This document shows, piece after piece, positions 1 to 1,290 of a stretch of DNA of 64,000 nt. A model generated the notes under the pieces. It did no database searches. It was given only the letters and a program-made list of their open reading frames with translations, and had not been told where the DNA came from. This DNA is from Microbacterium sp. JZ31 (GTDB taxonomy: Bacteria; Actinomycetota; Actinomycetes; Actinomycetales; Microbacteriaceae), in assembly GCF_016805985.1 (NCBI RefSeq), contig NZ_CP017661.1, forward strand, positions 2,170,001 through 2,234,000. Direction: 5' to 3'. Position 1 is the first letter of the stretch, and every line of letters begins with the position of its first letter. The translations under genes and the position numbers were made by a program.

Positions 1-408
1 GCGCTGGCGGCCGTCGCCGACGATCAGCTCGGGCACGCCGTACGTCCACGGCTCGTGGAAGTCGCCGCCGTAGAACGCGTCCCAGTCGTCCTTGCCGGTG
101 AGCCGGTGATCCGCGCCGCAGTCGATCACGAGCTTCACGTCGGTGAGGGCGTCGGTGTACTGACCCGACTGGCCGTGCGGCAGTGCGAGGAACACGATGT
201 CGTGCCCCGACAGGATCTCGGGGGTCGTGTCCTGCAGCGTCAGGTGCGCGAGGGAGCGCAGGTGAGGCTGGTGCGCGATGAGGGGCTGGCCGGCGTTGGA
301 GTGCGCGGTGACCGTGCGGATCTCGACGTCGGGGTGGTCGGCGAGCAGCCGCAGCAGCTCGCCTCCCGCATAGCCAGAAGCGCCGGAGACGGCGACCGAA
401 TAGGTCAT
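1..408 (-). CDS. argC: N-acetyl-gamma-glutamyl-phosphate reductase, N-terminal part (cut by window edge)
   Basis: ArgC reduces N-acetylglutamyl phosphate to the semialdehyde, the third step of arginine synthesis, with NADPH. Only the first 136 codons are present; the rest, including the region that should hold the catalytic cysteine, lies left of the window. The nucleotide-binding motif [13 protein letters not shown] is at residues 8-20, and [10 protein letters not shown] follows near residue 96. The start ATG at 408 has the Shine-Dalgarno GGTGG at 413-417. Other arginine genes presumably follow outside the window (inference). A short Arg-rich ORF lies upstream in the same direction. Family assignment is secure. 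Confidence 0.95.
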
Positions 409-453
409 GATTCCACCTTAGATGTCCGTGAGCAGAGGGCCGGAGACGGCGAC
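382..453. repeat. 15-bp direct repeat at the argC start (382-396 and 439-453)
   Basis: GCCGGAGACGGCGAC occurs twice, 57 nt (19 codons) apart, so the two copies are in the same reading frame relative to argC. One copy encodes residues 5-9 of ArgC; the other lies in the untranslated stretch before argC. An in-frame TAA at 418-420 separates the upstream copy from the argC start, so it is not an N-terminal extension. Confidence 0.6.
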
Positions 454-477
454 ACCGCTCGGCCTGGTGGCCCTGCT
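438..477 (-). promoter_or_regulatory. Possible hairpin in the argC leader
   Basis: On the transcript strand, GGCCGAGCGG (464-455) can fold with CCGTCTCCGGCC (449-438) around a 5-nt loop with two single-base bulges; AGCAG (477-473) can extend it with CTGCT (435-431). CCACC at 470-466 is complementary to the argC Shine-Dalgarno GGTGG at 417-413, and GGCCAC at 472-467 is complementary to GTGGCC at 530-525 inside the Arg-codon run. Mutually exclusive structures are therefore possible. This was judged by eye with no energy calculation. Confidence 0.3.
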
Positions 478-486
478 CGATCGCGC

Positions 487-585
487 TCAGGCGCGAGAGC
501 TTCGCGGCGTCGCCGGGATTCGGCGGCCACGCGGACGTCGGCGCAGGACGATGACCCGGGTGGGGTGCAGGATCGCCTCGCGCAT
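487..585 (-). CDS. Candidate 32-residue Arg-rich leader peptide upstream of argC
   Basis: This short ORF reads toward argC and ends 78 nt before it. Ten of 32 codons are arginine, and six of the eight codons 15-22 are arginine (CGC CGA CGT, CGT, CGC CGA), including three uses of CGA in all. A TACGCT hexamer ends 6 nt before its ATG, the same spacing as many other genes in this window, so it could be the first codon of a leaderless mRNA. A cis-acting arginine sensor for argC is an inference. Chance ORFs in GC-rich DNA are also Arg-rich, so confidence is moderate. No ArgR-like operator was recognised nearby. Confidence 0.45.
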   Translation of the reverse strand: MREAILHPTRVIVLRRRPRGRRIPATPRSSRA

Positions 586-591
586 GCGGCG

Positions 592-597
592 AGCGTA
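592..597 (-). promoter_or_regulatory. -10 box for the argC leader transcript
   Basis: TACGCT lies 6 nt before ATG 585, the leaderless spacing seen for many genes in this window. No clear -35 was recognised. Confidence 0.45.
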
Positions 598-630: not shown

Positions 631-1290
631 ATGGGCGACCGGGCCGGGCAGGATCGCGCCGACGAGCGTCAGGCGATGCTCGAGTGGCACATCCGGGCGC
701 GCGGGATCGCGGATCCCCGCGTGCTCGACGCGATGGCCGCCGTGCCGCGCGAGCGCTTCCTGCCGCCGTCCGTGGCGGCCGACGCGTACGCCGACTCGCC
801 GCTGCCGATCGGGCACGGGCAGACCATCTCGCAGCCGTACATCGTGGCGCTCACCGCCGAGGCCGGGCTGCTGAAGCCCGGCGACCGCGTGCTCGACGTC
901 GGCACCGGATCGGGCTACGCCGCCGCCGTGTACGCCGCGATCGGTGCCGAGGTGTGGTCGGTCGAGTTCGTGCCGGAGCTCGCCGAGCAGGCGCGCGCGG
1001 CACTGGCCGCGGCCGGCGTGCGGAACGTGCACGTGGTCACGGGCGACGGCACGCTGGGGCTCCGCGATCACGCGCCGTTCGACGCGATCCTCGCCGCCGC
1101 GGCCGGGCCCGACATCCCGGCCCCGTGGATCGACCAGCTCGCGGAAGGCGGCCGCATCGTCATGCCCCTCGAGCGCAATCCCGGATGGCAGCAGCTCGTG
1201 CGCGTCACTCGCCGCGGCGACGACACCGAGCTGGACGACCTCGGCGCCGTGCGCTTCGTGCCGCTCCGCGGCGAGCACGGCCTGCGCTGA
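631..1290 (+). CDS. pcm: Protein-L-isoaspartate O-methyltransferase
   Basis: The product (219 aa, family usually about 210) uses S-adenosylmethionine to methylate L-isoaspartyl residues in aged proteins, starting their repair in the cytoplasm. The family motif GQTISQPYIVA is at residues 63-73 and the SAM-binding motif VLDVGTGSGYAAAV at 87-100. The frame stays open far upstream, but ATG 631 is chosen because similarity begins just after it and a -10 hexamer sits 6 nt before it. The gene is convergent with pheT, with an inverted-repeat hairpin between them. Assignment is confident. Confidence 0.92.
   Translation: MGDRAGQDRADERQAMLEWHIRARGIADPRVLDAMAAVPRERFLPPSVAADAYADSPLPIGHGQTISQPYIVALTAEAGLLKPGDRVLDVGTGSGYAAAVYAAIGAEVWSVEFVPELAEQARAALAAAGVRNVHVVTGDGTLGLRDHAPFDAILAAAAGPDIPAPWIDQLAEGGRIVMPLERNPGWQQLVRVTRRGDDTELDDLGAVRFVPLRGEHGLR

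Follow-up and report, generated by a model that had tools for sequence, protein, structure and literature searches.

A candidate leaderless, ribosome-stalling arginine attenuator upstream of argC in Microbacterium and its family

The upstream region of argC

We analysed a 64,000-nt stretch of DNA, hereafter the window, from Microbacterium sp. JZ31 (NZ_CP017661.1), whose own genome is labelled G000 in our set. The window opens with the start of an arginine biosynthesis operon, and the following features lie there.

592..597, minus strand: -10 element TACGCT of a leaderless-type promoter, a TAnnnT that ends 6 nt 5' of the leader ATG
487..585, minus strand: leader peptide ORF of 32 codons plus TGA (ATG at 585-583, TGA at 489-487), conserved in other genera
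520..543, minus strand: Arg cluster RRRPRGRR, codons 15-22, the common part of otherwise differing leaders
506..514, minus strand: arm A, GGCGACGCC, directly 3' of the Arg cluster, with A:C co-variation in 37 genera
448..456, minus strand: arm C, GGTGTCGCC, by co-variation the pairing partner of A or of the stretch before argC
409..443, minus strand: region E, between arm C and the argC start, which can pair with C (C:E co-variation, 37 genera)
413..420, minus strand: TAAGGTGG, in sequence the argC Shine-Dalgarno (SD) and also a -10-like hexamer, TAAGGT
1..408, minus strand: first 136 codons of argC, cut by the window edge, the first gene of argC-J-B-D-F...argH

The leader of the window translates as MREAILHPTRVIVLRRRPRGRRIPATPRSSRA (585-487, minus strand), and 78 nt separate its stop codon from the argC ATG. 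Arginine occupies codons 2, 10, 15, 16, 17, 19, 21, 22, 28 and 31, with CGA at 16, 22 and 28. The original prediction had described a 32-codon ORF reading toward argC, in which six of the ten Arg codons fall within codons 15-22, and its coordinates and counts were confirmed, as was the choice of TACGCT (597-592), ending 6 nt before the leader ATG, as the -10 element. It had also put the leaderless genes of the window at about twenty, in agreement with a count over both strands of the whole window, in which TAnnnT stands 6-7 nt before ATG or GTG at 24 sites and 20 of these precede ORFs of at least 100 aa (argC included; they were counted as ORFs, not as individually confirmed genes). The argC leader is the sole ORF of 15-45 codons opened by any of the 24 sites. 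The hexamer of argC itself, TAAGGT (420-415), is of the leaderless type as well, lying 6 nt before the ATG and overlapping the Shine-Dalgarno.

With names given by reading the translations, the operon of G000 runs argC-J-B-D-F, membrane protein, argH, membrane protein, tyrS; the membrane protein gene between argF and argH occupies L251:9006-10742 on the minus strand. On the other side of the leader, a protein-L-isoaspartate O-methyltransferase-like gene (by reading; 631-1290, plus strand; TACGGT 6 nt before its ATG) sits divergently between pheT and the leader, and in six reduced genomes of the family (L252-L257) a pheT-like end, again by reading, adjoins argC. A search of the window with Rfam families, T-box included, gave no match at gathering score.

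Conservation and codon content of the leader

Conservation had been named by the original prediction as the decisive test of the leader, and it was assessed at two depths, in sets that may overlap. The first was a scan of genome contigs that yielded 80 argC loci, nearly all titled Microbacterium, of which 79 were testable (L070, with only 52 nt upstream, was left out). A leaderless-type start followed by an Arg-rich ORF of 22-43 codons precedes argC in 77 of the 79. The two misses, L032, which is without such an ORF, and L059, in which a frameshift separates the start from the Arg block, were excluded from the later set of 77 leaders. The second comprised 120 genomes of the family of the window (Microbacteriaceae, a family of soil bacteria), of which 4 had no argC match, 6 were reduced genomes whose argC upstream regions were read by eye, with no leader seen, and 110 were scored by one uniform criterion, which asked for an ATG or GTG start with TAnnnT 6-7 nt ahead of it, a length of 15-45 codons, a stop at least 50 nt before argC and at least 4 Arg within 10 residues. 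By this criterion 60 of the 110 genomes, G000 included, carry the leader; G020, whose leader has a -10 spacing of 9, was scored as a miss. Applied to 18 other families of the order, represented by 60 loci whose genomes all have an ArgR match, the same criterion picked out none, and among dinucleotide shuffles of the family argC upstream regions, 4 or more Arg in 10 residues arose in 9 of 2200 and 6 or more in none of 2200.

What recurs is the start, the frame and the Arg cluster, while the remainder of the peptide varies: N-termini differ widely between genera, and the Arg block stays in frame across fifteen leader lengths. Single-base codon differences are synonymous in 40.3% of cases against 32.5% expected, a modest excess. 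Judging from these comparisons, the predicted leader peptide before argC is a real, conserved element and not a chance ORF, which answers the worry, raised with the original prediction, that random GC-rich ORFs are Arg-rich too. On an argC tree of 70 rows, leader-bearing rows occur in both large parts of the family; the tree is poorly resolved (in its best version the leader state changes 14 times, at least 3 of these changes being forced by starred branches), and gain and loss are indistinguishable on it.

Several features were seen in part of the leaders only. In L015, L036, L063, L066 and L048 the leader is lengthened by in-frame insertions resembling short palindromic repeats (FLSERSESK-like, LNLSKG), with the Arg block still in frame. 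About 35 nt upstream of many Microbacterium leader starts (L007-L080) lies a conserved GATTTGCGG, probably a -35 element, of which no counterpart was seen in the window. A hairpin within the leader ORF is common in Microbacterium, not family-wide: L006, L051 and L082 (the same as G096) have a strong one just before the Arg codons, GACGCTCG..CGAGCGTC, and L017, L040, L062 and L073 have one at the same place with other sequences. We also considered a leader of the same type on argG and rejected it, with no Arg-rich leader in the 19 standalone argG loci scanned (of 30 fetched) from leader-bearing genomes; in all 19, TAnnnT stands before argG itself. Divergent standalone argG genes with a leaderless-type start were observed far from the arg operon in G000 (L318, C1:111241-111684) and at L300-L317, and the best argG match was a full-score argG in 11 of the 30 genomes searched.

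The choice of Arg codons in the leaders is also distinctive. Among 500 Arg codons of Microbacterium leaders CGA makes up 31.2% and CGG 2.2%, whereas the argC genes of these loci, with 1277 Arg codons, use them at 2.0% and 26.8%, respectively; the leaders of 60 family genomes (470 Arg codons) have 23.8% CGA and 7.2% CGG. Fisher tests on codon use drew on counts back-derived from the rounded shares. CGA had been expected to be rare in this genome, and so it is, with no occurrence among 116 Arg codons in five operon genes of G000 in addition to the 2.0% just given. Typing of 30 of the 46 tRNA loci of G000, together with their surroundings, gave tRNA-Arg genes with the anticodons ACG, CCG and TCT; a TCG tRNA may lie among the other loci. 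CGC, CGU and CGA are read by the tRNA with the ACG (ICG) anticodon, and CGG by that with CCG. Since the Arg codons of the leaders are CGC, CGA and CGU and CGG is avoided, a single isoacceptor, tRNA-Arg(ICG), may be what the leader reads, although RNA pairing could contribute to the codon bias too. Watching one isoacceptor is an arrangement that selective-charging theory favours, as set out in the accessible part of PMC1183508.

Proposed competing helices and the argC start

Arm A lies directly 3' of the Arg codons and overlaps the TAG stop codon of the leader in many species. In 55 of 59 family genomes the distance from the core of arm C, GGCGTCGCC, to argC is 41-53 nt. Pairing between these elements was tested with one sequence per genus (37 genera) and independently chosen anchors; anchoring was possible for 135 of 137 leader sequences, and G015 was left out. 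Permuting the partners gave weaker A:C pairing than the cognate pairs (z -3.5, 13 of 20000 permutations), and C:E co-variation was more pronounced (z -4.8, 0 of 10000 permutations), figures that are optimistic because the genera are related, a relatedness that the control pairs share. Those controls gave z of -0.6 for C with reversed E, -0.1 and 0.3 for the promoter with C and E, and 0.0 and -0.4 for the ORF start with C and E. Within A:C, pairs 1-4 are invariant by construction of the anchoring, pairs 5 and 7-9 have changed in both partners in a few cases, and pair 5 is non-standard in 14 of the 37 genera. Other pairings were not robust or were weak: the Arg codons gave z -4.3 with E in one sequence window versus -1.4 in another, and -2.3 versus -0.5 with C, and loop B with E was matched in 10 of 5000 permutations. 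Taken as comparative evidence, these results support A:C and C:E as competing, mutually exclusive helices. An intrinsic terminator was rejected as the output. Only 4 of 135 sequences have a T-rich stretch (5 T in 8 nt) in the interval from C to argC, which makes such a terminator unlikely, and no terminator-like site was found in positions 1-1400 of the window; the element is thus not filed as a classical transcriptional attenuator.

To follow the predicted switch, we simulated the RNA with the ribosome stalled or set at the leader stop codon. From the stalled to the stop position the mean P(A:C) fell from 0.51 to 0.02 and the mean P(C:E) rose from 0.17 to 0.41, P(C:E) being higher at the stop in 31 of 37 genera. 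The consequences for the argC start are small in the model: E is unpaired at 0.48 when stalled versus 0.47, with no gain on stalling (20 of 37 genera), and moving the ribosome from the stalled position to the stop raises the mean energy cost of opening the argC start by only 0.5 kcal/mol (a rise in 22 of 37 genera and 54 of 77 Microbacterium loci), while in the window the cost is slightly lower at the stop (11.27 versus 11.36). Simulated untranslated RNA resembles the stalled state (P(A:C) 0.51), so the model requires a further step that keeps untranslated RNA off. In the window, as in L001-L005 and L011, the ORF has lost the TAG next to arm A and reads on to a TGA. In the window's own copy this stop lies beyond arm A; a ribosome simulated there would not cover A, and P(A:C) keeps a value of 0.58, with P(C:E) at 0.06. 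On average across the family the modelling thus favours a termination-based switch, but support is poor in the clade of the window, in which the passage of the ribosome through arm A would have to do the switching.

The sequence directly before argC changes with the presence of the leader. Ahead of argC, an SD core is present in 59 of 60 family genomes with the leader but in 16 of 50 without it, and also in all 77 Microbacterium leader loci; this co-occurrence is expected if argC is carried on the mRNA of the leader. TAnnnT lies 6-7 nt before argC in 45 of the 60 leader-bearing family genomes and in 77 of 77 Microbacterium loci, and 33 of the 50 leader-lacking genomes (for example L116, L125, L130, L133 and L139) have TAnnnT alone, without the SD core, as if many leader-lacking lineages had argC itself on a leaderless mRNA. 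In rows whose argC alignment starts beyond residue 1, we located the argC start by counting codons, which makes the SD and -10 counts for those rows approximate, above all among the 60 controls.

ArgR and the control of the arginine operon

Textbooks present arginine operons as repressor-controlled, with ArgR as the repressor. The C-terminal domain of ArgR (PF02863) was found in none of the 120 family genomes (78 genera), G000 included, and the N-terminal domain (PF01316) had no match in G000. A control search with PF02863 matched 8 of 14 control genomes, C. glutamicum among them. In a sample of the order, ArgR was present in 137 of 149 genomes, and in 137 of 139 outside the family of the window; the 12 without it were 10 members of that family, one genome of 0.8 Mb and one assembly in about 290 contigs. 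In other families an ArgR match lies about 4.6-8.6 kb downstream of argC (same-contig pairs compared by eye). ArgR was apparently lost once, at the base of the family. Control of the operon by ArgR was rejected on these grounds, and the earlier statement that no ArgR-type operator is seen here agrees with ArgR not being found in G000. The 50 genomes of the 110 that have no leader by our criterion are likewise without ArgR.

We consider it likely that the region is a leaderless, ribosome-stalling, cis-acting arginine attenuator of the arginine biosynthesis operon. The transcript would begin at the leader ATG. With tRNA-Arg(ICG) poorly charged, the ribosome would stall on the run of CGC, CGA and CGU codons and leave arm A free to pair with C, by which C:E beside the argC Shine-Dalgarno would be blocked and argC expressed; with arginine plentiful, the ribosome would reach the stop codon and cover A, C would pair with E and expression would fall. 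The comparative support comprises the leaderless-type start, the frame, the Arg cluster, the codon choice, the co-variation of A:C and C:E, the linkage of leader and SD, and the absence of ArgR; leader translation, stalling, the direction of the response, the effect on expression and the output step, whether at translation initiation or by Rho-dependent termination, are what we infer. A fuller version, in which the family lost ArgR and control moved to a leaderless attenuator with tRNA-Arg(ICG) as the monitored species, A:C as antisequestor and C:E as sequestor beside the SD, is offered more tentatively, as an account that may or may not hold in all its parts.

The place of the leader transcript in argC expression and the step at which it acts could be read differently. 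A second proximal promoter is possible because TAAGGT is SD and -10-like hexamer at once, and it might start a second leaderless argC mRNA that provides basal or even most expression, with the leader transcript a mere adjunct. Such a promoter would be in keeping with the 20 of 24 window sites that lead into an ORF of 100 aa or more (that of argC included), with the recurrence of TAnnnT before argC in leader-bearing genomes and Microbacterium and with its occurrence alone in 33 of 50 leader-lacking genomes; yet a leaderless mRNA needs no SD, the SD core is kept in 59 of the 60 leader-bearing genomes while TAnnnT is missing in 15 of them, and the conservation of the leader would be left unexplained, so that we regard this arrangement as rather unlikely. 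An output by Rho-dependent termination in the stretch from C to argC, instead of blocked translation initiation, is a distinct possibility, even if we lean against it. The accessibility of the argC start barely differs between the simulated states, region E is richer in C (0.355) than in G (0.222), T-rich stretches are as rare as described above, and Rho has been proposed for the mycobacterial cys leaders (PMC1262725, as far as its accessible part goes), but the position of C:E beside the SD and the linkage of leader and SD fit translational control equally well.

Other readings concern the peptide itself. Stalling might come from the positively charged nascent chain, or from sensing of free arginine by the peptide, in place of low tRNA charging: the Arg run is dense, and the fungal arginine attenuator peptide senses free arginine, according to the portion of PMC11550727 at hand. 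We hold this to be improbable, as the N-terminal part of the leader differs widely between genera with only the Arg cluster recurring, and a preference for CGA over CGG would be meaningless to a peptide sensor, though RNA pairing could also cause it. That the ORF encodes a small trans-acting protein would suit the modest synonymous excess (0.403 versus 0.325) and is very improbable, given that the Arg cluster, together with its position with respect to arm A, is all that recurs and that lengths span 20-43 codons. To a chance GC-rich ORF, for which only the general richness of GC-rich DNA in Arg codons speaks, we give practically no credence; it is refuted by conservation, with the shuffles (9/2200) and the control loci (0/60) set against 60/110 family genomes and 77/79 Microbacterium loci.

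The preferred reading, an arginine attenuator worked by a stalling ribosome, has relatives among known systems. A 2020 report by Canestrari is said to treat the leaderless, cysteine-rich ORFs that lead mycobacterial cys genes. Like the argC leader as proposed here, the mycobacterial cys leaders are short leaderless actinobacterial ORFs that head an amino-acid operon and contain a run of codons for the product, with no evident intrinsic terminator in the accessible parts of PMC4633059 and PMC1262725; the argC leader differs in serving arginine rather than cysteine, in belonging to another family, in its co-varying A:C and C:E helices and in accompanying the loss of ArgR. In orf34-speF of Salmonella, a stall at consecutive Arg codons versus a pause at the stop sets a post-stop hairpin and the opening of the ribosome-binding site; it controls ornithine decarboxylase, not arginine synthesis, and its ORF has an SD and a conserved peptide domain (PMC6386406, in part). 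As is proposed for the argC leader, the rbfL leader ORF of Staphylococcus aureus senses arginine limitation via Arg codons, but it has two of them (AGA, AGG) and represses a biofilm regulator at low arginine, thus acting with the opposite sign on another target (PMC13009471, in part). Actinobacterial ilvB, leuA and trp leaders share with the proposed argC attenuator a leader peptide and alternative RNA structures (PMC1262725; for M. tuberculosis ilvB1, PMC13236596), whereas the trp and ilvB leaders contain terminator hairpins with U-tracts after them, as far as the accessible text of the same sources goes. Closest in mechanism is orf34-speF, and closest in anatomy are the mycobacterial cys leaders.

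No leader peptide for arginine biosynthesis in Actinobacteria appeared in the literature searched, which took in little of the subscription literature. A 2005 survey of Actinobacteria gives, in its accessible part, no conserved RNA structures before arginine operons (PMC1262725), and "attenuation" in the accessible parts of the Corynebacterium papers denotes lowered enzyme activity. As judged from sequence comparison, the argC leader extends the leaderless amino-acid leader peptides to arginine, and does so in a family whose genomes gave no ArgR match. If the proposed mechanism is true, it would be, within the literature searched, the first ribosome-mediated attenuator of bacterial arginine biosynthesis. 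It would also offer a natural test of selective tRNA charging, and, with CGA raised and CGG avoided, a clean one of the idea as presented in the accessible part of PMC1183508. For the family, it would amount to a testable swap of repressor for attenuator, with ArgR in 0 of 120 genomes and a cis-acting peptide sensor before argC in about half.
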